From Rhizobium sp. RU33A (GTDB lineage: Bacteria > Pseudomonadota > Alphaproteobacteria > Rhizobiales > Rhizobiaceae), in contig NZ_FTMQ01000001.1 in the NCBI RefSeq assembly GCF_900156055.1, positions 310,001-374,000 on the forward strand: a stretch of 64,000 nucleotides of DNA. Direction: 5' to 3'. Shown one piece after another: positions 554-44,789 of this stretch. The stretch's first letter is position 1, and each line of letters begins with the position of its first letter. A program made the translations under genes and the position numbers. The notes below the pieces were generated by a model. It was not told where the DNA came from. It saw only the letters and a list, made by a program, of their open reading frames with translations, and ran no database searches.

Positions 554-1630
554 TCAGAGGCGGATGATATGCTGGTCCCAGGCAATCTCGGTGTTTCGGT
601 CGAGGAAATCGCCACGATAGGAAGAGACGGCGAAGCTTGTGGGCGAGGGGGCAATGCCCGCCGCATCCGTCAATACCGTTTCGGCCAGGAGGCGACCGTC
701 CTTGCCATCCAGCACCGCCCAGAGCCCGTTCTTCGGCGAGGCGATGCCGACGAGGCCTTCTGCCCGGTTGACGGCGATGGCGCCGACATAATTGCCGAGC
801 CGGTCGGTCGTCTCGTCGGGAAGCCGGACATAGGAGACGGGAACGCCCTTAGCGAAATGCCCGACCAGCGGCGGCCGATCCGTGCGTGGGCCCTCATACT
901 GGCAGGCGAACCATATCCGGCCATCCGACGCCACATCGAGATGCCGGGTGGAGAGCTGGCGCAGTTCTGGCGGCAAGACATGCTTCTCGATCAGTACCCC
1001 GGTCTTGGCATCGGTCAGAACCAGCGAGGGCTCCATGTGGTCGAGATTGAGCTTGGTGCGCCCGAAATCCGGATGCGTTTCGATCCCGCCATTGGCGATG
1101 ACCAGGAGACCATCTGCCGTGACGGTGATGTCATGCGTGCCAATGCCATGGGCCGGCACCTCACCCACGCGTTCGAAGCCAGAGATGCAGTCATAGATCC
1201 CGATCACGCCGGCATTGGCGTCGAAGTCGTTTTCGCTGGCATAGAAGTGCCGACCGTCCGGCGAGAAGGCGCCATGGCCAAAAAAGTGGCGTCCCTCCGT
1301 TGCCGCGATGATGCGCGGCTCAACGGATTTCTTGGCATCAAAGATGACGGCAAAGGTCCCTGGCCGCCGGGCAAAGGCAACCGAAAGCCCATTTGCAGCA
1401 CTGTGGCAGAGCCCGTGGACACGGCCGGGCAGCGCGATTTCGTCGATCAGGCTGCCCGCCTCGCTGACGAGGCCGATGGCAAAGGAGCCATCCGCGCGCT
1501 TCAGCCCACTGGCATAGACGGCATCCGCACGCTCCAGCGCAAAGGCCGAACGCGGCGCCAGACTTGCCATAAAGGCGAGGCCAGCCGAGCGCAGGAAGGC
1601 ACGGCGATCAATGAGCGGCGTGGCGATCAT
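554..1630 (-). CDS. DUF1513 family Tat-exported beta-propeller protein
   Basis: A 358-residue protein starting MIATPLIDRRAFLRSAGLAF, a twin-arginine (Tat) signal, followed by a repeat-rich body (FGHGAFSPDGRHFYASEND, GIGTHDITVTADGLLVIANGG) typical of a YncE/WD-like beta-propeller. The DUF1513 family is periplasmic and usually encoded with imelysins and a di-heme oxidoreductase, as here. The start overlaps the upstream imelysin stop (TGAGATG), so translation is probably coupled; a longer reading starting at 1681 would overlap that gene by 50 bp and would bury the Tat motif. The biochemical function is unknown; a scaffold or accessory role in envelope iron acquisition is inferred from context. 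Confidence 0.85.
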   Translation of the reverse strand: MIATPLIDRRAFLRSAGLAFMASLAPRSAFALERADAVYASGLKRADGSFAIGLVSEAGSLIDEIALPGRVHGLCHSAANGLSVAFARRPGTFAVIFDAKKSVEPRIIAATEGRHFFGHGAFSPDGRHFYASENDFDANAGVIGIYDCISGFERVGEVPAHGIGTHDITVTADGLLVIANGGIETHPDFGRTKLNLDHMEPSLVLTDAKTGVLIEKHVLPPELRQLSTRHLDVASDGRIWFACQYEGPRTDRPPLVGHFAKGVPVSYVRLPDETTDRLGNYVGAIAVNRAEGLVGIASPKNGLWAVLDGKDGRLLAETVLTDAAGIAPSPTSFAVSSYRGDFLDRNTEIAWDQHIIRL

Positions 1631-1631
1631 C

Positions 1632-2738
1632 TCAGTCGCCGTCGGAGAAGGAGAAGCCGGCGGCAAGTCCGATGCCGCCACCGAGATCGTTGTTGAGCCT
1701 GAGGATCAGGTCGCGACTGTTGAGCAGCAGGAAGTCGAGCTTGGCGATCTGGGCCGGATCCTCGATGACGGCGGCGACATCTGGCTTGATATCGGCCGAC
1801 ACGCGCGAGAGGGACCTTGCAACGAAATCTGTCGAGGAGACGACCGAGCGATTGCCCTCCGCGAGCAGGTCTACCATGCCCGAGGTGTCGAGCAGGTCGC
1901 GCAGGCCTTCGATATTGGCCGTGATCGAGCGGAAAGTATTGCCCGAACGCCAGTAGATCGCCTGGCGGGGCAGGGCCTTTTTCGGATCGCCCTTGTAGAA
2001 TTGCTCAATGCGCTGGTCGCGAATCGTCTCGGCAGCATGCACGAGCACGCCGAGCAGTTCCTTGGCGGCCTCCGCCTCGTCGCGGTAGAGCGGGTTATTG
2101 GGTCCCGGCGTCTTCCAGGCCGCCGCAACACCATCCGGCGCATCCCAGGCGGCGGAGAGTTCCGCGCCAAGCCGCTGCAGATTGGCCGCAATCGCGGTGC
2201 CATACTGGCAGCGGTAATGGCCTTCGGTGGTCGTGAGCGTCTCCGAGCCGGTTCCGAAAAGCACGAATTCCAGCGCGCCGAGCCCCTGCATGGCGACGCT
2301 CTTGCCCTTTAACGTCTCGACCGAAGTGACGCTCGGGTCCAGCTTGGCGAGCGCTGCCTGCACCTGTTTCAACCCGGTACCCTTGCGGTCGGGGAAGAAC
2401 AGGATGCGTTCGAAGCGGTTGTCTTCGATGGCTGGTCCGACGCGGACGATCTCGATGCGCGACCAAGCTTCGACCACGTCGCCGAAGGCCTTGTGTGCGC
2501 CGTCGGGCGTCTGGGGTGACGGAGCACTGCACAGCGACTGCATCGCGCCCTGCATGGCAGTGGCCTGATCGGTGAAATGGCGATAACCCGGACGGATGAA
2601 ACCGTCGACGGCCCGCGCCATCACGCCCGGCACCTTGGCGGCGTCGAGCACGCCGACAGTCGAGTTCGATTCCTGCGCCAGGGCTGGCAGTGGCAGCAAC
2701 ATCGTGGAGAGAAGAGCGAGGCGCGTGAATAACCGCAT
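1632..2738 (-). CDS. Imelysin family periplasmic protein (second copy, divergent)
   Basis: This 368-residue protein has a Sec signal (about residues 1-21, ending PALAQ) and an imelysin/peptidase M75-like fold region. At residues 152-157 it reads GLGALE, where imelysins carry GxHxxE, so the metal-ligand-like His is replaced by Gly while the Glu is kept. Imelysins (EfeO, IrpA relatives) bind or handle iron/heme at the cell surface or periplasm. The start overlaps the stop of the di-heme oxidoreductase gene by an ATGA, so it is the third gene of a tightly coupled operon. The missing His suggests a non-metal-binding partner of the first imelysin; that is inference. Confidence 0.88.
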   Translation of the reverse strand: MRLFTRLALLSTMLLPLPALAQESNSTVGVLDAAKVPGVMARAVDGFIRPGYRHFTDQATAMQGAMQSLCSAPSPQTPDGAHKAFGDVVEAWSRIEIVRVGPAIEDNRFERILFFPDRKGTGLKQVQAALAKLDPSVTSVETLKGKSVAMQGLGALEFVLFGTGSETLTTTEGHYRCQYGTAIAANLQRLGAELSAAWDAPDGVAAAWKTPGPNNPLYRDEAEAAKELLGVLVHAAETIRDQRIEQFYKGDPKKALPRQAIYWRSGNTFRSITANIEGLRDLLDTSGMVDLLAEGNRSVVSSTDFVARSLSRVSADIKPDVAAVIEDPAQIAKLDFLLLNSRDLILRLNNDLGGGIGLAAGFSFSDGD

Positions 2739-4264
2739 CAGAGAGACTCCAGAAACGTGATCAAGGCCTTGCGTTCCTCGGTATTGGCCGCGGCAAAAGC
2801 ATTACGGGCGGCCTCAGCCTCGCCGCCATGCCAGAGAATGGCCTCGATGAGGTTTCGCGCCCGCCCGTCATGCAGGAAGAAACTGTGGCCGCTCACCTCT
2901 TGCGTGAGGCCGATACCCCAGAGCGGCGGCGTGCGCCATTCCCGTCCCGTCGCATCTCCGACCGGCTGGTTGTCGGCGAGGCCCTCGCCCATGTCATGCA
3001 GCAGGAAATCGGAATAGGGCCAGATCAGCTGAAAGGCCTGCGCCTTGTTCTCGGCGTTTCGGCTCGTCACGAATTTCGGCCGATGGCAGGCGATACAGCC
3101 GCTCTCGTAGAAGATCTCCTTGCCACGCAGCACCTGGGCATCGTCCACGTTGCGCCGCTTCGGCAGGGCCAGGTTCTTGGCATAGAAGGTCACGAGATCG
3201 AGCACCGGATCAGGACCTTCCGTATCGCCCAGCCGAGGCTGGACACCTGTCGCGGCTTCGAGGCAGGCGGTCTGCTTGTCCGTGCAATCGCCGAAATGCC
3301 TGGGATCATCGGGCGTTGAGATCCCGATATCGCCGACAAAGGCGCTGGCGCTCTGGTCGCGCACCAAGGCGTTCTGAGCCTTCCAGCCGAAACGACCGAG
3401 CTTTATTTCGTCGGTCCGGTGGTCGCGGGCGCGAGCCGCGCGTCCGGAAATTCCGTCGCCATCAAGGTCGTCGGGATCGGCGAGTGCCCGGATGTCTTCC
3501 TCGGGGATCGCCTCGATCAGGCCGAGCCCAATCATCGGATTGGCGATGCGCGGGGAAAGGGTCGTCGTCGGATCAAGCGGACCGTAATTGAGGTCGGTGA
3601 CGGAATAGCTGGGGCGGCGCAGCATCACCGTCTCGCCGCCTGATAGCGTCACCGGCTCTTCGGTGTAGGTGATTACCATGCGTCCCTCGGCGGAGATGCC
3701 GGGCACCGCCTGATCCTGCAGCTGCCCGCCATAGACGGGGTCGGGAAGCGAGGCGATGTCGAGCCGATCGAGTCTTGCCTGTTCCTCTGCCGTGGCGGCC
3801 GGCCGCGCCAGGCGGAAGAACATCGAGGTGTGGTCGCGGTCGCCTTCCGGCGGATGGCCGCGCCCATCCTTCAGATGGCAGCTCTGGCAGGCCCGTGCGT
3901 TGAAGAGAGGGCCGAGGCCGTCCGAGGCCTGCGTAGACGAGGGGGAGGAGACCCAGAGCTTGCGGAACAGCGCATTGCCGAGCTTGAACTCTTCCTCTTC
4001 GGCAAAGGTGATATTGGCGGAGGAATCGGAAAACGAATCCGCGCTCACACCGCGCGGAGATGTGCCGGCGCCACCCTGCATCAGTTCAAAACTCTCGGCC
4101 TTGCTGAAGTCTTCCGTCGGACGCGTGACGGCGATGACGCGGGAGATATCCTTCGGCGTCAGATCGGTTCGTCCGGCAGCCTCTCCGGCGGCAACGGGCG
4201 AGATCGTGACGCCCGTCGTCAAAAGCATGCCGAGGCCGGCGAGGGTGGCCTTGCGAGTTCTCAT
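2738..4264 (-). CDS. Di-heme c-type thiol oxidoreductase-like protein (DUF1111)
   Basis: A 508-residue exported protein with an N-terminal signal (cleavage likely near residue 26) and two CXXCH heme c sites, CQSCH at 126-130 and CIACH at 390-394, the hallmark of the DHOR/DUF1111 family, related to bacterial di-heme peroxidases. Length matches the family. It sits between two imelysin genes, the usual arrangement for this family, and probably moves electrons in the periplasm, perhaps reducing or oxidising the iron or heme handled by its neighbours; the substrate is not known. It ends in an ATGA overlap with the next gene. Confidence 0.9.
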   Translation of the reverse strand: MRTRKATLAGLGMLLTTGVTISPVAAGEAAGRTDLTPKDISRVIAVTRPTEDFSKAESFELMQGGAGTSPRGVSADSFSDSSANITFAEEEEFKLGNALFRKLWVSSPSSTQASDGLGPLFNARACQSCHLKDGRGHPPEGDRDHTSMFFRLARPAATAEEQARLDRLDIASLPDPVYGGQLQDQAVPGISAEGRMVITYTEEPVTLSGGETVMLRRPSYSVTDLNYGPLDPTTTLSPRIANPMIGLGLIEAIPEEDIRALADPDDLDGDGISGRAARARDHRTDEIKLGRFGWKAQNALVRDQSASAFVGDIGISTPDDPRHFGDCTDKQTACLEAATGVQPRLGDTEGPDPVLDLVTFYAKNLALPKRRNVDDAQVLRGKEIFYESGCIACHRPKFVTSRNAENKAQAFQLIWPYSDFLLHDMGEGLADNQPVGDATGREWRTPPLWGIGLTQEVSGHSFFLHDGRARNLIEAILWHGGEAEAARNAFAAANTEERKALITFLESL

Positions 4265-4312
4265 GATGGGGATCGGGCCGCTCCCTTGGAAGGGGCGACC
4301 CGCCTTTGCTGC

Positions 4313-5593
4313 TTACTGGAAGACGGCCTCAGGACTATCAAGGCTGTCGGAGCCTTCAAGCTCGATCGTGCCGAGCTCCAGCGACGCAATGACGCGCTGG
4401 ATAGACTGCGTCTGGTCGATCAAACCATCAATGGCGGCTTGCACGGTTGCATTGCCCTCGGCATTGCCTTCGCCGATCATCTGGTCATAGGCTTCCTTGG
4501 TCTCTGCCCGCTCGGCCATGGCATTCATGGCAGCGAGCGTCTTCTCAAGCTTGCCCTTCATTTCCGCATCGAGCGCGGTATCCTTGGCGGCAACCAGCTC
4601 CGAGAGCGACGGGCCGGTGAGCTTCGTGCCATCGACGCGGGTGTATTCGCCGGTATAGGCAGATGCGATGCCGATCGCGTCGTTCAGATGCGAGGCGTGC
4701 GTGTTGTCGGAGAAGCAGTCATGCTCCTCTTCCGGGTCATGCAGGAGTACGCCGAGCTTCATGCGCTCGCCGGCGAGTTCACCGTAAGAGAGCGAGCCCA
4801 TGCCGGTGAGGATCGCGGAAATGCCCTTCTGCTCATCGGCGAGAACGGCCTTCGTTGCTTCACCTTCGGGCGCCCAGGCCACGACCATCTCTTCCAGATC
4901 CTGCACCAGCAGCGTCGAGGCAGACTTCAGATAGGCGGCGCGGCGGTCGCAATTGCCGTTGGTGCAATTGGCCGTGTCATAATCGGTGAAGGGGCGGTTG
5001 CCGGCACCCGGGCCCGTGCCATTCAGGTCCTGACCCCAGAGGAGGAATTCGATGGCGTGATAGCCGGTTGCGACATTGGCCTCGACTTCCCCGGCTTCAT
5101 GCAGGGTCTCGGCGAGAAACTCCGGCGTGATCTTGGAGGCATCGACCTCTTCGCCATTGATCTTGATCTTCGGGCTGGCGATGACGTTGGCCACGTAAAG
5201 TGCGTTGCCGTCACTCTCGGTGCCGTAACCGGCATCGACGTAATCGATCAGGCCTTCATCCAGCGGCCAGGCATTCACCTTGCCTTCCCAATCGTCCACG
5301 ATCGGGTTGCCGAAGCGATAGACCTCGGTCTGCTGATAGGGCACGCGGGCGGAAATCCAGGCTGCGCGGGCCGCCTTCAGCGTCTCGTCGCTGGGCTTCG
5401 CGATCAACGCGTCGATGGCCACATCGAGCGCCTTGGCGGTCGAGAGCGAGTCCTCGAACTTGGCATGGGCAAGCTCTGCATAGTGCGTCAGCACGTCCTT
5501 GGGCGCGGGCGCAGCCACTGCAGGGCCGGCAAAAATCGCAGCCGATGTGACGAGCAGCGCGACGGACGCGCCGATGACGGATTTCCGGATCAT
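4313..5593 (-). CDS. Imelysin family iron-regulated protein (IrpA-like)
   Basis: First gene of the iron/heme operon: 426 residues, with a signal peptide (about 1-27, ending AVAAP) and the imelysin motif GxHxxE intact as GYHAIE at 177-182, followed by FLLWGQDLNGTGPGAGNR. The family is named after insulin-cleaving membrane protease but in bacteria is mainly linked to iron. The ATG is preceded by GGGAG. Upstream (5594-5717) is a fairly A/T-rich stretch with an inverted repeat TTGATC-N15-GATCAA (5690-5716), but I see no clear RirA or Irr box. Forms an operon with the three downstream genes. Confidence 0.9.
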   Translation of the reverse strand: MIRKSVIGASVALLVTSAAIFAGPAVAAPAPKDVLTHYAELAHAKFEDSLSTAKALDVAIDALIAKPSDETLKAARAAWISARVPYQQTEVYRFGNPIVDDWEGKVNAWPLDEGLIDYVDAGYGTESDGNALYVANVIASPKIKINGEEVDASKITPEFLAETLHEAGEVEANVATGYHAIEFLLWGQDLNGTGPGAGNRPFTDYDTANCTNGNCDRRAAYLKSASTLLVQDLEEMVVAWAPEGEATKAVLADEQKGISAILTGMGSLSYGELAGERMKLGVLLHDPEEEHDCFSDNTHASHLNDAIGIASAYTGEYTRVDGTKLTGPSLSELVAAKDTALDAEMKGKLEKTLAAMNAMAERAETKEAYDQMIGEGNAEGNATVQAAIDGLIDQTQSIQRVIASLELGTIELEGSDSLDSPEAVFQ

Positions 5594-37687: not shown

Positions 37688-38041
37688 TTACTCGACGATG
37701 CCGAGTTCGGCGCGCAGCCTGCGGGTCAGCGACGCACTGACCGTGCGATAGGAACGGGTGAGATATTCCATAAGGTCGGCTTCGCCGAGCTCGCTGTCCG
37801 GTTCGACGCTCACCCATTTGCGCTTGGCGAAATAGGGCGCCTGCGACACGCCTTTGAGCGACGTCAGGATTTCGAAGCTTTCTTCGCTGACCTTGAAGGT
37901 TAATCGATGTTCACCATCGGTCAGCAGGGAAAAGACCTTGTCGCCTACCTTGGCAACACGGCTGTCCCATTGGTCGACCTGTGTTGTGCCGGCAAACCCT
38001 TGGACAAAGGCCTCGAAGCCGGCGCGCGTAAAGAGGCTCAT
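37688..38041 (-). CDS. MmcQ/YjbR family protein
   Basis: A 117-residue protein of the MmcQ/YjbR (CyaY-like fold) family: RVAKVGDKVFSLL and KWVSVEPDSELGEADLMEYLTRSYRTVSASL match the usual lysine/tyrosine-rich pattern. Often described as DNA-binding without direct proof. Its start overlaps the coaBC stop (ATGA), so it is the second gene of a coaBC operon. Confidence 0.85.
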   Translation of the reverse strand: MSLFTRAGFEAFVQGFAGTTQVDQWDSRVAKVGDKVFSLLTDGEHRLTFKVSEESFEILTSLKGVSQAPYFAKRKWVSVEPDSELGEADLMEYLTRSYRTVSASLTRRLRAELGIVE

Positions 38042-39252
38042 GCGCCTGTCCCGCCGATCTGGGTCGCGATCCAGAGTGCCAGCCGTTCGGCCACTTCGTC
38101 TTTCGAGAGATCAGGCCAGGCTTCGACCCCGTCGCGGCTGATCAGCTTCACCCGGTTGCGGTCGCCCCCCATGATCCCGGTCTCGGGCGAGACATCATTG
38201 GCGACGATCAGGTCGGCACCCTTGCGCTCAAGCTTGGAGCGGCCGTTTTCCTCGACATTCTGTGTCTCGGCCGCAAAGCCGACAACAAGGCGCGGACGCT
38301 GGGCATGGTGGCCGACGGTCTTCAGGATATCAGGGTTTTCTGCAAGCTCGAGCGGCGGCGGCGCCTCGCCGGGCTGCTTCTTGATCTTCTGACCGGCCGA
38401 GGACGCAACACGCCAGTCGGCGACGGCGGCCACCATCACGGCGATGTCGGCCGGAAGTGCCGAGAGCACGGCATCACGCATCTCCTCCGCCCGCTCCACA
38501 TGCTGGGTGCGAACGCCGGAGGGATCGGCAATGGTCACGGGTCCGGAAACCAGCGTAACCTCGGCGCCGAGGCGGGCAAGGGCGGCCGCAATCGCGTGGC
38601 CCTGCTTGCCGGAGGAGCGATTGGCGATGTAGCGCACGGGATCGATCGGCTCATGCGTCGGGCCCGAGGTCACGACGGCTGTCATGCCGGCCAGCGGTTT
38701 CGGCCCGGAGAGCAGGTCTTCGACGCGGTCTGCAATCTCGATCGGCTCGGCCATCCGCCCGCGTCCACGCTCGCCGCTTTCGGCCATCTCGCCTTCCATC
38801 GGGCCGATGGCCTTGATGCCGTCCCGCTGAAGCACTGCAAAATTCCGCTGGGTTGCCGGATGCGCCCACATCTTCGGGTTCATCGCAGGCGCGATGAGCA
38901 CCGGGCGGTCGGTTGCGAGAAGCACGGTGGAGGCCAGATCATCCGCAAGCCCGTTGGCCATCTTCGCCATCAGGTCGGCGGTTGCGGGCGCGACAAGCAC
39001 GAGATCGCATTCACGCGCAAGCCGGATATGGCCGACATCCTGCTCGTCCTCGCGGGAGAAGAGTTCGGTATAGACATGGGAAGCCGAGAGCGCGCCAACA
39101 GCAAGCGGCGTCACGAATTCCTGGGCGCCACGCGTCATGATGGGTCGCACGCTCGCACCGCGCTCCCTGAGCCTCCTGATGAGGTCAAGGCTCTTGTAGG
39201 CGGCGATGCCACCCGCGATAACAAGCAAAATCCGCTTTCCGGCCAAGCTCAT
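38038..39252 (-). CDS. coaBC: Bifunctional phosphopantothenoylcysteine decarboxylase/phosphopantothenate-cysteine ligase
   Basis: A 404-residue CoA biosynthesis enzyme. The N-terminal CoaC flavoprotein half begins KRILLVIAGGIAAYKSLDLIRRL and contains PAMNPKMWAHPATQRN. The C-terminal CoaB half begins TAVVTSGPTHEPIDPVRYIANRSSGKQGHAIA and has KIKKQPGEAPPPLEL for the CTP-dependent ligase. The start at 39252 (MSLAGKRIL) is preferred over 39261. It is followed by an overlapping YjbR gene. Confidence 0.95.
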   Translation of the reverse strand: MSLAGKRILLVIAGGIAAYKSLDLIRRLRERGASVRPIMTRGAQEFVTPLAVGALSASHVYTELFSREDEQDVGHIRLARECDLVLVAPATADLMAKMANGLADDLASTVLLATDRPVLIAPAMNPKMWAHPATQRNFAVLQRDGIKAIGPMEGEMAESGERGRGRMAEPIEIADRVEDLLSGPKPLAGMTAVVTSGPTHEPIDPVRYIANRSSGKQGHAIAAALARLGAEVTLVSGPVTIADPSGVRTQHVERAEEMRDAVLSALPADIAVMVAAVADWRVASSAGQKIKKQPGEAPPPLELAENPDILKTVGHHAQRPRLVVGFAAETQNVEENGRSKLERKGADLIVANDVSPETGIMGGDRNRVKLISRDGVEAWPDLSKDEVAERLALWIATQIGGTGA

Positions 39253-39341
39253 GAAGTGCAACCCTTTCTCTGCGGCCGCGACCCTAGCGCAAATCCGGTC
39301 GCTGGCAAATCATCGAGACTGGGACTGGTAAACGGCGTGCC

Positions 39342-40382
39342 TCAAGCTTCGTTGTCGAGCTTCAGCGGGACTTCCGCGACGGTTCCATGCGTGCCTTCGA
39401 GATAGTGTAGCCCGTCTCCGAGCGTGGAGGCCATGGATTTGACAATGCGGCTCCCGAGACCGGTTCCCTTCGGCGCGCGCTGCGGATCGATTCCGACGCC
39501 GTCATCCTCGACCCGAAGCAGCGCCTCGCCGTCGCCCCGCATCTTCAGATACACCCGGATATCGCCGGACTGTCCCGGCGCATAGGCATATTTGAAGGCG
39601 TTGGTAACGAGTTCCGTGACGATCATGCCGACCGAAACTGCCTTGTCGGCGCTGAGGGAGATGGGATCCGCATCGAGCAGCAGGCGCACCGGCTTTTCGG
39701 CGCTGTGCAAGGAATTGTAGAGCTCGACGGTGAGGCGATTGAGGTAACGATCAAGCTCCACCCGGCTGACGTCGTCGGAGGTGTAGAGACTGCGATGCAT
39801 GCCGGCGATGGCTGTGATACGGGCTTGGGTCTCGGCCAGTTCCGCCTTCACTTCGTCGCTGCGGGCCGCAGAGATTTGCAGTCTGAGCAGGCTGGCGACC
39901 AGCGCCAGCGAGTTGGCGACGCGATGGTTGACCTCGGCCAGCAGGGCCTCGGCACGTTCCTTGCCGAGCCGGATCTCTTCATCGGCGCGGGCCTTCGCCG
40001 CACGCAGCTGGGCGTTGGCGATCGTCTGCTCTATCGCGCTGGACAAGAGCGAGAGGAAGTCGTCGCTGACCGTCTTGATGACGTAGTCCGCAGCGCCCGC
40101 CTTGATCGCCTCGATCGCCACCTGCGCCTCGTTCGATCCGGTGACATAGACCACCGGCACATCGATCTCGGCCTCGCGCATGCGACCGAGCACGTCGTGG
40201 CCGGTTGTCTGCCGCAGGTAATGGTCGAGCACGACAACATCGAACTCGGTCGTCTTCAGGAGTTCGAGCGCGTCTTCGGCGTTCTCGGCATGCGACACCT
40301 CATGACCGAGCCGGCCCATATGCTTCTGGACCAGCCGGGCAATGGCAGCATCGTCATCGATGTAAAGAACGCTGAAGCTCAT
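39342..40382 (-). CDS. Receiver-HisKA_2 hybrid sensor histidine kinase
   Basis: A 346-residue soluble protein: receiver domain about 1-120 with acidic residues DDD at 9-11 and phosphoacceptor D53 (VVVLDHYLRQ), a short coiled linker (about 122-145), then a HisKA_2 module with H153 in AEVNHRVANSLALVASLL and an ATPase domain with N box ELVTNAFKYAY and G box KGTGLGSRIVKSM. Such receiver-kinase proteins link one phosphorelay to another. It is third in an operon after a CHASE3 kinase and a single-domain receiver; the gap to the receiver gene is 13 bp. Its partner response regulator is not in the window. Confidence 0.9.
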   Translation of the reverse strand: MSFSVLYIDDDAAIARLVQKHMGRLGHEVSHAENAEDALELLKTTEFDVVVLDHYLRQTTGHDVLGRMREAEIDVPVVYVTGSNEAQVAIEAIKAGAADYVIKTVSDDFLSLLSSAIEQTIANAQLRAAKARADEEIRLGKERAEALLAEVNHRVANSLALVASLLRLQISAARSDEVKAELAETQARITAIAGMHRSLYTSDDVSRVELDRYLNRLTVELYNSLHSAEKPVRLLLDADPISLSADKAVSVGMIVTELVTNAFKYAYAPGQSGDIRVYLKMRGDGEALLRVEDDGVGIDPQRAPKGTGLGSRIVKSMASTLGDGLHYLEGTHGTVAEVPLKLDNEA

Positions 40383-40395
40383 CGCCTGACCGCCA

Positions 40396-40833
40396 TCAGG
40401 GGATTTGCATGACGGAGAAGAACAGTCCGAGCTGGCGAATGGCGTTGGCGAAATTGTCGTAATCGACAGGTTTGGTAATATAGACATTGGCCCCGAGATC
40501 GTAGCAGCGCTGGATTTCGCGTTCGTCATCCGTCGTCGTGAGGATGACGACCGGGAGCCGTCGCGTGTGCGGATTGGATTTAATCTGGTCGAGAATATCG
40601 GTGCCCGACATGTCGGGTAGATTGAGGTCGAGCAGAATCAACAGGTAGCGGTCTTCTGAAATCTTGCCGCTACGATCCTTGCCCAGCACGTAGTCGAGCG
40701 CTTCGGTGCCGTTGGTGAAGGGCACGATCTCGTTGTTCACGCCGGCCCGACGCACATTCTTTTCGATCAGACGGGCGTGACCCTCGTCGTCTTCGACCAT
40801 GACAATGGTGACTTCTTTACCCACGGCTTTCAT
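40396..40833 (-). CDS. Single-domain response regulator (Rcp1-like)
   Basis: A 145-residue stand-alone receiver with acidic pocket E14-D16 (VMVEDDEGHARLIEKNVRRAG), phosphoacceptor D69 in LLILLDLNLPDMSG, Thr near 100 (VVILTTTDD) and Lys121 (YITKPVD). It resembles Rcp1-type regulators paired with phytochrome-like kinases and has no output domain, so it probably shuttles phosphate. The ATG at 40833 follows GGAG with 6-nt spacing and overlaps the upstream kinase stop; an in-frame TTG at 40839 is less likely. Confidence 0.9.
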   Translation of the reverse strand: MKAVGKEVTIVMVEDDEGHARLIEKNVRRAGVNNEIVPFTNGTEALDYVLGKDRSGKISEDRYLLILLDLNLPDMSGTDILDQIKSNPHTRRLPVVILTTTDDEREIQRCYDLGANVYITKPVDYDNFANAIRQLGLFFSVMQIP

Positions 40834-40835
40834 TA

Positions 40836-42323
40836 TCAACTCCGTACCAAGCGTGACAGATCAGATGGCAGTCGCAGTACGAAGGTTGACCCTTCTCCTA
40901 AACGGGATTGAACGGTGATCTCCCCTCCAAGGTTCCGTGCCAGTGAGCGGACATGGGCAAGGCCGATGCCTTCACCCGATTGATCCTGCTGACCGGAGCG
41001 GCGGAAGAGTTCGAAAATGCGTTCGTGATCCTGTTCTGCAATGCCACGGCCGTTGTCCTCAACCTCGATCCTTACCATGTGACGCCCTTCGGGCGCGGTT
41101 CGGACGGCGAGGGTCAGGGGCCGTTGGGGATGCTTGTACTTGATAGCATTGTCGAAAAGGTTACCGAGAATTTGTTCGACCGACAATCGATCAGTGTTCA
41201 GGCAGGTGGCCTTGATGTCGAGATCGATGCTTCCGTCGCTTTCGCTGATCTGGTGATAGACGCTGTTGGTAATGGTCTCCAACATGGGCTGCAGTTCGAC
41301 GATTTCGGGCTTCAACTGACGTCGCCCGTCTCGCGAGATCTTCAGGATCGCGTTGATCAGTCCGTCCATCTTCTTGGTCGATGAGCGGATGAAGCCGATG
41401 GCTTCGGGCAGGTCCTCCGAGGCAGCCAGTCTGGCTTCGCGGATCTCCTCTTCGGACACCGGCTTGCCATCGTTCAGGACATAGGCCTGCAAGGATTTCA
41501 GAGAGGCATCGAGCTCGGCTGTAAAGCCCATGATGTTGACGAGCGGCGCTCTTAGATCATGCGTCACGATGTAAGCGAAGCGCTGGATTTCCTGGTTTGC
41601 TTGCATGAGATCGTCTGTGCGCTCCGCCACGCGGGCCTCGAGGCCCTGGTTCAAGACCTCCACCTCGCGCCTGGAAGCCGCGAGCGCACGCACATGCTGG
41701 GCAACGACCAGGATCGCACCACCCATCACGGCAATGATGGCGATGCCGCCGCCGACCGTAATCCACTGAAGTTGCTCGGTCGCGCTGATCTGGGCCTCGG
41801 TCCCGCGCTCAACGTTGGCGTCCGAGAGTTCCTTGAACTGGTCAAGCATGGAGCGGATGTCGTCCATAAGCTCACGACCGACATCGCTCTGGATCAGTTC
41901 AACGGCCTGTTCCTGCTCACCGCTGCGCACGAGATTGATGGCCTGTCCCATCTCGGCAAGCTTACCGCGGATCCGGTCACGCAACCGTTCCATCTGGGCT
42001 GCCTTGATCGGGCGATTGGCAACCGCTGCCGCGAGCCTGTCGACCTCTTCGCGGATTTCGCCGACGGAGGACTCGTAGGGCTGGAGGAACAGCTCGTTGC
42101 GGGTGATGACGAAGCCGCGCTGGCCCGTCTCGGCGTCGGTCAGCTTCTGCATGAGGTCGGCGGACATGCGCCGGATGCTGCGCTCCTGCAGGATGTATTC
42201 AAAGGTCGTCTGGGTACGCTCGACGAGACCAAAGGTCGCGACGATGATGCCGATGAGGATTGCGGTGCCGATCAGGAGGAAGAGCAGCGTGGACCGAACA
42301 AAGCCGGTTTGGGTGGCGGTCAT
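40836..42323 (-). CDS. CHASE3-domain membrane sensor histidine kinase
   Basis: A 495-residue kinase. TM1 is about residues 11-33, a periplasmic CHASE3 domain about 35-170 (LTDAETGQRGFVITRNELFLQPYE), TM2 about 188-208, a coiled linker, HisKA with H255 in VTHDLRAPLVNIMGF, and HATPase_c with NLFDNAIKYKHPQ, DNGRGI and GEGIGLAHV. The kinase region resembles phytochrome-type HisKA kinases. It begins the kinase-receiver-kinase operon, 40 bp downstream of a candidate EcfG promoter. The CHASE3 ligand is unknown. Confidence 0.92.
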   Translation of the reverse strand: MTATQTGFVRSTLLFLLIGTAILIGIIVATFGLVERTQTTFEYILQERSIRRMSADLMQKLTDAETGQRGFVITRNELFLQPYESSVGEIREEVDRLAAAVANRPIKAAQMERLRDRIRGKLAEMGQAINLVRSGEQEQAVELIQSDVGRELMDDIRSMLDQFKELSDANVERGTEAQISATEQLQWITVGGGIAIIAVMGGAILVVAQHVRALAASRREVEVLNQGLEARVAERTDDLMQANQEIQRFAYIVTHDLRAPLVNIMGFTAELDASLKSLQAYVLNDGKPVSEEEIREARLAASEDLPEAIGFIRSSTKKMDGLINAILKISRDGRRQLKPEIVELQPMLETITNSVYHQISESDGSIDLDIKATCLNTDRLSVEQILGNLFDNAIKYKHPQRPLTLAVRTAPEGRHMVRIEVEDNGRGIAEQDHERIFELFRRSGQQDQSGEGIGLAHVRSLARNLGGEITVQSRLGEGSTFVLRLPSDLSRLVRS

Positions 42324-42362
42324 GGAACTCCAGACGGAACAAACGATGCGTTTTCAAGTTCA

Positions 42363-42387
42363 AACGCATGATCGACTGCTTTGTTCC
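42363..42387 (-). promoter_or_regulatory. Candidate EcfG (general stress sigma factor) promoter
   Basis: On the minus strand GGAAC (42387-42383), 16-nt spacer, CGTT (42366-42363), a full match to the alphaproteobacterial EcfG/RpoE2 consensus GGAAC-N16/17-CGTT. The -10 element ends 40 bp before the start of the CHASE3 kinase gene, giving a normal leader. By base counting about one such match is expected by chance in a window this size, so its position carries the weight. Confidence 0.65.
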
Positions 42388-42432
42388 ATCAAGAAATCGA
42401 GGAACTGCGTTTATTTTCGTCGCTCTTGGACC

Positions 42433-44007
42433 TCAGGAAACCTGTAAGGCGATAACCACCGCTGCAACCGCGATCACCCAGAGCGCGATCCGGCCAGACC
42501 GCGTATGTCGCGCTTCTGCCCGTCCGATGCGCTCGGCGGTATCGGCATCGAAGCGCAGACCTTCCTCGCTCATCCGCACGATCTCTCCGTGAAGCTTCTC
42601 GGTCTTGGTGGCGATTTCCGGTAGCGCTTCGGCCAGCCTGAGTGCCGCCTTGGCGCCATCCTTGATATCAGTCGCAATGCGCTTCGGACCCAGATTGTCG
42701 CGGATCCAATGCGAAACGACCGGCTCCGCGGCTTTCCACATGTTGAAACGAGGATTGAGAATGCGCGAGACGCCCTCGACGACGACCATCGTCTTTTGCA
42801 GCATCACCAGTTCCGGGCGCGTCTGCATGTCGAAGATCTCGGTGACTTCGAACAGCAAAGTCAGCAGCTTGCCCATGGAAATGGTCTCGGCCGGCTGCCC
42901 GTGGATCGGCTCTCCGATCGCACGGATCGCTTGGGCGAAGCTCGCGACATTGTGGTGCGACGGCACATAGCCGGCTTCGAAATGCACTTCGGCCACGCGC
43001 ATATAATCGCGCGTGATGAAACCGTAGAGGATCTCGGCGAGGAAGCGCCGTTCCTTCTTTCCAAGGCGCCCGGCAATGCCCATGTCGACGGCAACGATCA
43101 TGCCGGCGGGATCGACAAAGAGATTGCCCGGATGCATGTCGGCATGGAAGAAGCCGTCGCGCAGCGTATGGCGCAGGAAGGACTGGATCAGTGTGTCGGC
43201 GAGCGCATTGAGGTCATGGCCGGCAGCCCTCAAACCCTCGACATCCGACATCTTGACGCCGTCGATCCATTCCATGGTGACGACATCGCGGCCCGTGCGC
43301 TCCCAGTCGACCTGGGGCACGCGGAAACCCGGATCGGACTTGGTGTTTTCGGCGATCTCCGAAAGCGCCGCCGCTTCGAGCCTCAGGTCCATTTCGACCT
43401 TGGTGGTCTGCTCGAGCGTCTTCGTCACCTCGACCGGGCGCAAACGCCGCGAATTGGGGATGAAGCGCTCCTGCAAATGGGAGACGAGATACATGGCCTC
43501 GAGATCGGCGGCGAAACGCTTGCGCACGCCGGGCCGGATCACCTTGACGGCCACCTTGCGGCGTCCCTCTGGTGTGTTTACCTCGGCGGGGTGAACCTGC
43601 GCGATTGACGCAGCAGCAATGGGCTCGTCGAAGCGCACATAGAGGTCTTCGATCGTGCGGCCGAGCGAGTCCCGGATCGTGGTCCTCGCCGATTCGGTGG
43701 GGAAGAAGGCCATCCGATCCTGCAGGCCTGCCAGATCCTCGGCGAAATCGGCGCCGACGACGTCCGGACGGGTGGCAAGGAACTGGCCGATCTTCACATA
43801 GGAGGGACCGAGGCGGGCAACCGCGTTGGCCAACCGGTCGGCTCGGTCGACGGATTTTACCCGGCTGCGGGCAAGCGGTGCGACGGCCGCTTTGGCAAAG
43901 CCGACGAGCGGAGGCAGCCCCTCCGACGGCAGGGCCGCCACGACGCCTTCCCGCACGAGGACCCATCCGACCCGCGCCAGGCGGAAATATGCACCGATCG
44001 TGCTCAT
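42433..44007 (-). CDS. ubiB: Ubiquinone biosynthesis protein UbiB (ABC1/ADCK kinase-like)
   Basis: A 524-residue atypical kinase with the family's KxGQ motif in YVKIGQFLATRPDVVG, the Ala-rich loop IAAASIAQVHPAEV, the catalytic-type segment GFFHADMHPGNLFVDPAG and metal-binding VDMGIAGRLGKKERRF, plus two C-terminal membrane helices (IALWVIAVAAVVIALQVS). It supports coenzyme Q synthesis, probably by moving or activating lipid intermediates. It starts 5 bp after ubiE, forming a ubiE-ubiB operon. Confidence 0.95.
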   Translation of the reverse strand: MSTIGAYFRLARVGWVLVREGVVAALPSEGLPPLVGFAKAAVAPLARSRVKSVDRADRLANAVARLGPSYVKIGQFLATRPDVVGADFAEDLAGLQDRMAFFPTESARTTIRDSLGRTIEDLYVRFDEPIAAASIAQVHPAEVNTPEGRRKVAVKVIRPGVRKRFAADLEAMYLVSHLQERFIPNSRRLRPVEVTKTLEQTTKVEMDLRLEAAALSEIAENTKSDPGFRVPQVDWERTGRDVVTMEWIDGVKMSDVEGLRAAGHDLNALADTLIQSFLRHTLRDGFFHADMHPGNLFVDPAGMIVAVDMGIAGRLGKKERRFLAEILYGFITRDYMRVAEVHFEAGYVPSHHNVASFAQAIRAIGEPIHGQPAETISMGKLLTLLFEVTEIFDMQTRPELVMLQKTMVVVEGVSRILNPRFNMWKAAEPVVSHWIRDNLGPKRIATDIKDGAKAALRLAEALPEIATKTEKLHGEIVRMSEEGLRFDADTAERIGRAEARHTRSGRIALWVIAVAAVVIALQVS

Positions 44008-44012
44008 CCGGA

Positions 44013-44789
44013 TCAGATCTTCCAGCCGGAATGAAGGGCTGCGATGCCACCGGTATAGTTGGTGAAGCGAACGTTCGAGAAACCGGCGCGCTCGATCATC
44101 CGGGCGAAGTCCGGCTGGTTCGGGAACTTGCGGATCGATTCCACCAGGTACTGGTAGGGTTCGGCATCGCCGGTGATCATCTTGCCGAAGCGCGGGATCG
44201 CATTGAAAGACCAGGCATCATAGACCTTGTCGAGCAGCGGCAGTTCGACTTCGGAAAATTCCAGCACGAGCAGACGTCCGCCGCGCTTCAGAACGCGGAA
44301 GGCCTCCGACAGCGCCACATCGATATGCGGCACGTTGCGGATGCCGAATGCGATCGTATAGGCGTCGAAGCTATTGTCCTCGAAGGGCAGGCTTTCGGCA
44401 TTGGCCTCGACGAAGGTGAGGTTGGGGGAAAGCCCCTTCTTCTCGGCCCGCTCGGCACCCACGCCGAGCATGGAACCGTTGATGTCGAGCACGGTCGCAT
44501 GCGCCATCCGGTTGGAGGCCTCGACGATACGGAAGGCGATGTCGCCCGTGCCGCCGGCGACGTCGAGCACCTTGTAGTTCTGATCCTTGCGTGGATTGAG
44601 AGCCGCCACCAGCGCATCCTTCCAGACGCGGTGCAGGCCGGCTGACATGACGTCGTTCATGATGTCGTAGCGCTTGGCTACCTTGTGGAAGACATCGTTG
44701 ACCAGGCCCTGCTTTTCCTGCTCGTCGACCTGGCGGAAGCCGTAGGAGGTTTCCATGCCGCCATCGGCGGAAATGCGGCTTGCAGTCAT
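44013..44789 (-). CDS. ubiE: Ubiquinone/menaquinone C-methyltransferase
   Basis: A 258-residue class I methyltransferase with [29 protein letters not shown], motif [16 protein letters not shown] and [32 protein letters not shown], all UbiE hallmarks. It methylates the demethoxy-quinol ring in ubiquinone synthesis. The ATG at 44789 is chosen; a reading to 45056 would overlap divergent mutM. It is divergent from mutM, with 137 bp between the starts. Confidence 0.96.

Follow-up and report, generated by a model that had tools for sequence, protein, structure and literature searches.

A TcsA-TcrA-FsrR-type signalling operon behind a mirror-symmetric EcfG-type promoter in Rhizobium sp. RU33A, a candidate input to the general stress response

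The operon and its surroundings

The analysed window is a stretch of 64,000 nucleotides from Rhizobium sp. RU33A (RefSeq assembly GCF_900156055.1, contig NZ_FTMQ01000001.1, positions 310,001 to 374,000). It carries a signalling operon of three genes, which encode a CHASE3 membrane histidine kinase (HK), a free single-domain receiver (RR) and a receiver-HisKA_2 kinase, referred to below as the third protein. This trio is homologous to the known acid-response system TcsA-TcrA-FsrR of Sinorhizobium medicae, and it is preceded by what is very probably a promoter of EcfG type, which forms one half of a mirror-symmetric element (Table 1). All coordinates are those of the window.

Table 1. Genes and promoter elements at the operon
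Feature	Position	Strand	Basis or remark
Three-gene signalling operon	39342-42323	minus	ORF order and packing
CHASE3 membrane histidine kinase (HK), TcsA-like, phospho-acceptor H255	40836..42323	-	Pfam CHASE3 (105 bits), HisKA, HATPase_c
Single-domain receiver (RR), Rcp1-like / TcrA-like	40396..40839	-	Pfam Response_reg
Receiver-HisKA_2 kinase, FsrR-like, D53 and H153	39342..40382	-	Pfam Response_reg, HisKA_2, HATPase_c
Sense EcfG-type promoter of the operon, GGAAC-N16-CGTT	42363..42387	-	Exact in 20/22 distinct close loci, variable spacer
Opposed EcfG-type half, GGAAC-N16-AGTT	42336..42360	+	Points off the operon toward the ubiB 3' end
Complete mirror-symmetric element, 52 bp	42336..42387	.	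Exact pattern search
ubiB-like gene, upstream, co-directional	42433..44007	-	Same position in close-clade loci
coaBC-like gene, downstream	38038..39261	-	Adjoins the trio in close-clade loci

The reading of the ORFs and the Pfam domains confirmed the residues named in the original prediction, namely H255 of the CHASE3 kinase, D69 of the receiver and D53 and H153 of the third protein. The overlapping stop and start codons and the short gap within one minus-strand operon were also found as described: the free receiver starts with a TTG codon that overlaps the HK stop, and 13 bp separate it from the third gene. Counted from this TTG, the receiver aspartate is residue 71, and residue 69 is obtained from the ATG at 40833. 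The best solved structure for the free receiver is 3heb with 241 bits, and RcpA and Rcp1 are among the next matches. The third protein fits HisKA_2 (76.5 bits) better than HWE_HK (30.9 bits). The genes adjoining the trio in RU33A, and likewise in those named loci that belong to the close clade, are presumably ubiB and coaBC.

Different sets of loci were used for the comparisons. The 80 named loci are the best 80 of 350 confirmed matches and were selected by similarity. For the promoter analysis, 130 loci were reduced to 125 with an HK above 200 bits and an RR above 100 bits, and these contain 104 distinct HK proteins, on which all motif counts are based. The neighbourhood count over 100 loci is not deduplicated, and some of its genomes are identical to others. 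It also includes L130, where the kinase runs off the contig, and L143, which has a weak receiver match, both of which fail the score filter. The kinase tree was calculated with FastTree, omitting the truncated L123; it has long branches, and its deep joins are unsure. The close clade comprises 22 distinct orthologous loci with a kinase identity of at least 72% and forms a single branch of this tree with a support of 98.

A conserved promoter of EcfG type

A GGAAC-N16-CGTT motif had been described in front of the operon, and it lies there, 39-40 bp ahead of the HK ATG. Since the relaxed motif (N15-18) occurs four times in the window compared to a mean of 1.67 in shuffled sequences, and 12 of 100 shuffles reach this count, the motif alone is no better than chance. 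Likewise, the N16-17 motif occurs 73 times in the whole RU33A genome and 82 times in a backwards control. The conservation of the promoter in close relatives, which was set beforehand as a check, is clear: the exact sense motif was found at -61 to -65 in 20 of the 22 distinct close loci, and the other two each differ in one base of the -10 element (CATT and TGTT). On the gene tree, one change was counted in the seven columns of the extended -35 element and two in the four -10 columns, while the 14 spacer columns diverge freely with 103 changes. This combination of conserved -35 and -10 elements with a free spacer argues that the sense promoter is real. The motif is common enough in window and genome to raise the question of a chance EcfG match before an unrelated two-component operon, but given this phylogenetic footprint such a coincidence is very improbable.

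The same form with N16 and CGTT also precedes phyR and nepR-ecfG of RU33A, as well as two genes that we take, from their sequence, to be csbD-like and DUF883-like. With the conservation in the clade and this shared form, the proposed EcfG-type promoter has held up. It is very probably real and of EcfG type, and EcfG control of the operon is likely. A further GGAAC-N17-CGTT lies within the CHASE3 kinase gene (40911-40936, minus strand) and is probably due to chance.

Outside the clade, GGAAC-N16/17-CGTT was found within 400 bp upstream in 10 of 82 distinct loci and on the opposite strand in 4 of 82. Permuting the motif letters gave a mean of 0.36 over 360 permutations, including the real motif, and no other permutation reached 10. 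The original prediction had named the loss of the GGAAC/CGTT pair in relatives that keep the operon as evidence against it. Such a loss is absent from 20 of the 22 close loci, but 72 of the 82 distant loci do not have the motif, and one relative with 95% identity has an altered -10 element. This indicates that EcfG control is either specific to the clade or was gained repeatedly, with a patchy distribution.

The opposed half and the mirror element

A second EcfG-type half, overlooked in the first reading of this locus, lies on the other strand, 2 bp from the sense promoter. Both halves together follow the pattern GGAACAA-N16-CGTT-N1/2-AAC-N16-TTGTTCC, where the spacer lengths start after GGAAC. 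In the 22 close loci, the opposed half retains GGAAC in 21 and NGTT in 20 (one with N17), and CGTT in 10. Two changes were counted in its seven extended -35 columns, four in the GTT columns, seven in the first -10 letter and 78 in the 14 spacer columns. The larger number of changes in GTT and in the first letter suggests that the opposed -10 element is less constrained than the sense one. In the two close loci without the opposed half, the sense CGTT is exact.

An exact search of 80 whole genomes detected the mirror arrangement once each in 17 genomes, every time at this operon, whereas the backwards control matched in one of the 80. It did not occur in 100 shuffles of the window. The mirror promoter is a new anatomical feature, and no title or abstract opening among the literature matches listed describes opposed or bidirectional EcfG promoters or promoters of other extracytoplasmic function (ECF) sigma factors.

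Two additional observations concern the variation of this element. The close loci with an altered sense -10 element, L012 (G004) and L016 (G035), both have an exact opposed GGAAC-N16-CGTT. In five loci (L010, L011, L013, L017 and L020), an extra GGAAC-N16-TGTT on the same strand overlaps the mirror element at about -39 from the kinase start, which may only arise from the letters of the opposed -10 element.

Two other explanations for the symmetry were considered. The element could be a palindromic operator of a dimeric regulator whose likeness to EcfG boxes is coincidental, which its two-fold symmetry and its restriction to one operon in the 80-genome search would fit. Each half, however, agrees with GGAAC(AA)-N16-(C)GTT, the form of the general stress response (GSR) promoters of RU33A, and between the GGAACAA boxes, which are 38 bp apart, little is conserved except the -10 letters and single columns such as position 40. 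We regard an operator as improbable. A similarly low, slightly smaller probability is given to an RNA hairpin acting as an attenuator or as a terminator of ubiB read-through. The window sequence does fold better than expected (z = -3.42, with 1 of 200 shuffles folding equally well), and a terminator-like site lies at 42369-42346, yet only two such sites occur in the region compared to 3.5 in shuffles. In the 22 sequences, pairing ends at the 7-nt extended -35 element, pairs 8-12 and the inner stem are at shuffle level, and no Rfam match at the gathering threshold was found in 38900-44200. The invariant outer pairs are uninformative either way, and the comparison of pairing with shuffles gave nothing beyond these 7 bp.

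Two opposed EcfG-type promoters at one polymerase site are compatible with the sequence and its conservation. The symmetry of the promoter could allow EcfG polymerase to bind in both orientations, which would yield an antisense RNA in addition to the operon mRNA. Assuming initiation about 7 nt past each -10 element, about 11 bp would separate the start sites on the two strands, and a transcript from the opposed half would enter the ubiB-like gene from its 3' end in antisense orientation. Bidirectional promoters of E. coli commonly have starts 10, 18 or 23 bp apart and are used by one polymerase at a time (PMC12825309). The element resembles these sigma-70 promoters in its pseudo-symmetric DNA, which would allow two exclusive polymerase orientations and divergent RNAs. 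It differs in that the E. coli promoters share a symmetric -10 element, whereas here, as far as can be judged from sequence, there are separate -10 elements 1-2 bp apart and two full ECF -35 elements. The boldest reading of the locus is that the mirror promoter may also drive an antisense transcript.

Relation to TcsA-TcrA-FsrR and lpiA

The original prediction had treated the arrangement as uncharacterised. This has to be revised, since by homology and domain order it corresponds to TcsA-TcrA-FsrR of S. medicae, which is reported to be necessary for the acid activation of lpiA (PMC4674904, PMC9048898, PMC5613336). Both systems share the gene order of CHASE3 kinase, single receiver and receiver-HisKA_2 kinase, the tight packing and the main Pfam domains. 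The identity to the S. medicae proteins is 65% for TcrA, 46.5% for FsrR (residues 5-322) and about 35% for TcsA. NCBIfam was not decisive as a test for membership, as such models do not even match the S. medicae proteins.

In one article, fsrR-tcrA-tcsA is said to be absent outside Ensifer (E.) medicae, with lpiA-acvB elsewhere under an unknown system (PMC9048898), and another describes fsrR in one E. meliloti strain, acquired by lateral transfer (PMC5613336). Our results show a much wider distribution: all three genes are adjacent at 76 of the 80 loci with the best matches (out of 350). These loci come from many genera and include L143 with its weak receiver match. The trio identity across these loci is lower than within E. 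medicae, and the free receiver is the most conserved member in nearly all of them.

The two systems also differ. At the RU33A operon, no lpiA lies beside the trio, and the coaBC-like gene follows instead. Furthermore, the EcfG mirror promoter is conserved here, whereas an exact EcfG consensus is missing in front of S. medicae tcsA. The lpiA ortholog of RU33A is located on another contig (G000:C13:12417-14948) and is 60% identical to S. medicae LpiA; its alignment was flagged with one in-frame TGA. EcfG control of lpiA was also considered as a route to the GSR and rejected, as there is no consensus upstream of lpiA in S. medicae and none among the genomic matches listed for RU33A just upstream of C13:12417.

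These results bear on the alternative that the trio is a dedicated acid or envelope-stress pathway as in S. medicae, driving lpiA-acvB or similar membrane genes via an additional regulator, with EcfG tuning the expression of the trio but not being its target. The homology and identical domain order, the lpiA ortholog in RU33A and the missing EcfG consensus upstream of S. medicae lpiA are in line with it. On the other hand, only two of 100 loci, both from S. medicae, have lpiA in their flanks, and GSR genes lie beside the trio in several lineages. In addition, S. medicae FsrR has no DNA-binding domain according to Pfam, which leaves the step to lpiA unexplained. Overall, a dedicated pathway appears unlikely. 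If FsrR-type proteins acted as PhyR kinases, the activation of lpiA and similar genes would be explained even though FsrR itself shows no DNA-binding domain. No title or abstract opening among the literature matches listed, including PMC2651895, links fsrR with the GSR.

Genomic ties to PhyR-NepR-EcfG

Nine of the 100 loci (L047, L048, L053, L126, L130, L133, L138, L142 and L143) are flanked by phyR, nepR or ecfG, compared to about 0.3 expected from genome-length arithmetic alone. The closest association is that of L053 (G076:C12:1370200-1376900), where ecfG, CHASE3 kinase, receiver and receiver-HisKA_2 kinase lie on one strand at 1386-4981 with phyR divergent. Its ecfG (1386-1910) directly precedes the kinase, overlapping with the longest ORF (from 1907) or separated by a gap of about 60 bp if a shorter start is used, a layout that suggests a common operon of ecfG and the trio. 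In Pleomorphomonas (L133 and L142), the GSR core follows the trio at a distance of about 2-4 kb, and about 345 bp ahead of the trio there is an EcfG motif. The remaining cases are Elstera (L130), L126, L138, L143, L047 and L048. Near the kinase and receiver of L047 and L048 (G028 and G038) there are also DUF883-like genes, and back-to-back EcfG motifs lie upstream. Adjacency to GSR genes requires at least five changes on the kinase tree, with L130 and L143 outside the tree.

In an even sample of the class, an FsrR-like protein (E-value up to 1e-55) was detected in 7 of 190 genomes including RU33A. All seven carriers have PhyR (E-value up to 1e-45), compared to 31 of the 190 genomes overall. 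In one of them (G116, L172), ecfG is encoded on the opposite strand 35 bp past the trio.

Taken together, these neighbourhoods tip the balance towards the trio being an input to the GSR. For the stress relay feeding back on the GSR, as originally proposed, the feedback gains from the presence of phyR, nepR or ecfG beside the trio in several lineages and from the EcfG-type promoter, but the shuttle role given to the free receiver is not supported in this form.

Signalling within the trio

The nearest characterised relative of the trio is BphP1-AgR-ExsG of Rhizobium NT-26. There, BphP1 acts as the kinase of both AgR and the ExsG receiver. ExsG transfers phosphate to ExsF but not to AgR, and it is inhibited by phosphorylation of its own receiver (PMC3899027). 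As in the BphP1-AgR-ExsG(-ExsF) clusters of NT-26 and Agrobacterium (PMC3899027, PMC1552090), a sensor kinase, an Rcp1-type receiver and a kinase of HWE/HisKA_2 type with an N-terminal receiver are clustered. The differences are that the sensor here is a CHASE3 membrane kinase instead of a bacteriophytochrome, that the ExsG-type cluster has a further receiver where the trio has ubiB-like and coaBC-like genes as immediate neighbours, and that the third protein fits HisKA_2 better than HWE_HK. By analogy, the wiring of the trio would be branched and inverting. Since ExsG leaves AgR unphosphorylated, a shuttle through the free receiver was kept as a minor option only, and this receiver is more likely a side branch.

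In S. meliloti, the genes exsG/exsF (SMb20933/SMb20934) for a sensor kinase and a receiver are counted among the direct targets of RpoE2, and a matching promoter is given for them (PMC6180224). Similar to the operon described here, an EcfG-type promoter (GGAACAAAGCAG...TGCGTT) lies ahead of the kinase gene, but it has no mirror half. Between stop codons, the ORF after this promoter reads as about 944 aa, in which no N-terminal receiver was recognised, and S. meliloti exsG was rejected as an ortholog of the third protein because this ORF is far longer and differently built.

The third protein shares the HisKA_2 core with GSR kinases of PhyK type, and PhyK is its best NCBIfam match. It differs from them in that an N-terminal receiver replaces the membrane sensor and in that the trio is not located beside phyR in RU33A. 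PhyK is also the best match for 3 of 10 other HisKA_2 kinases of this genome (100-121 bits). This likeness is therefore unspecific and was dropped as proof of a GSR function.

Proposed mechanism and implications

The best reading of these results is a stress-induced, branched sensor module feeding PhyR-NepR-EcfG. We consider it fairly probable that this TcsA-TcrA-FsrR-type operon acts as a sensor module with input into the GSR and, in this clade, is itself driven by the GSR. In this scheme, EcfG-RNA polymerase would transcribe the operon from the minus-strand promoter, as its conservation suggests. The CHASE3 kinase, judging by its domain, would sense an envelope or periplasmic cue and, following the example of BphP1-AgR-ExsG, phosphorylate two targets, the free receiver and the receiver domain of the third protein. 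The phosphorylated receiver of the third protein would then inhibit its HisKA_2 kinase, as in ExsG, and the free receiver would form a competing branch or act as a phosphate sink, without being an obligatory shuttle. When uninhibited, the HisKA_2 kinase would phosphorylate a regulator encoded elsewhere. From the repeated phyR/nepR/ecfG neighbourhood, we infer phosphotransfer to PhyR as the most likely case, which would free EcfG from NepR and close the feedback loop.

Several results weigh against this scheme. The EcfG motif is not enriched in the RU33A genome, 72 of the 82 distinct non-clade loci have none within 400 bp upstream, and the DNA upstream of S. medicae tcsA and lpiA does not contain the exact consensus. 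The third protein matches the PhyK equivalog NF051872 with 109.8 bits in the core only and stays far below the curated cut-off of 750, and the PhyK best match is shared with other kinases of the genome. The nine loci flanked by GSR genes include near relatives (L047/L048 and L133/L142), and in L047 and L048 HK and RR are found near phyR with no third gene in the fetched stretch. The co-occurrence with PhyR is confounded by phylogeny and small genomes. Finally, the RU33A trio lies on contig C12 and phyR on C8, and of the six other carriers in the class sample only G116 shows adjacency, while in three the genes are far apart on the same contig and in two on different contigs.

A bolder combined proposal is that the promoter works in both directions, producing either the operon mRNA or the ubiB antisense RNA, and that FsrR-type kinases are generally PhyR kinases. 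It is possible but less likely than not. If true, the two-way promoter would cap the positive feedback, lower noise and couple stress with ubiquinone synthesis, and it would provide a natural example of one site from which an ECF sigma factor acts in both directions. As the trio is widespread and repeatedly tied to phyR, nepR or ecfG, FsrR-type kinases become testable as PhyR inputs. The general stress locus of RU33A itself (L148, G000:C8:289000-303000) contains PhyR, EcfG, two NepR matches and an HWE kinase, together with six GGAAC-N16-CGTT motifs and one with TGTT.

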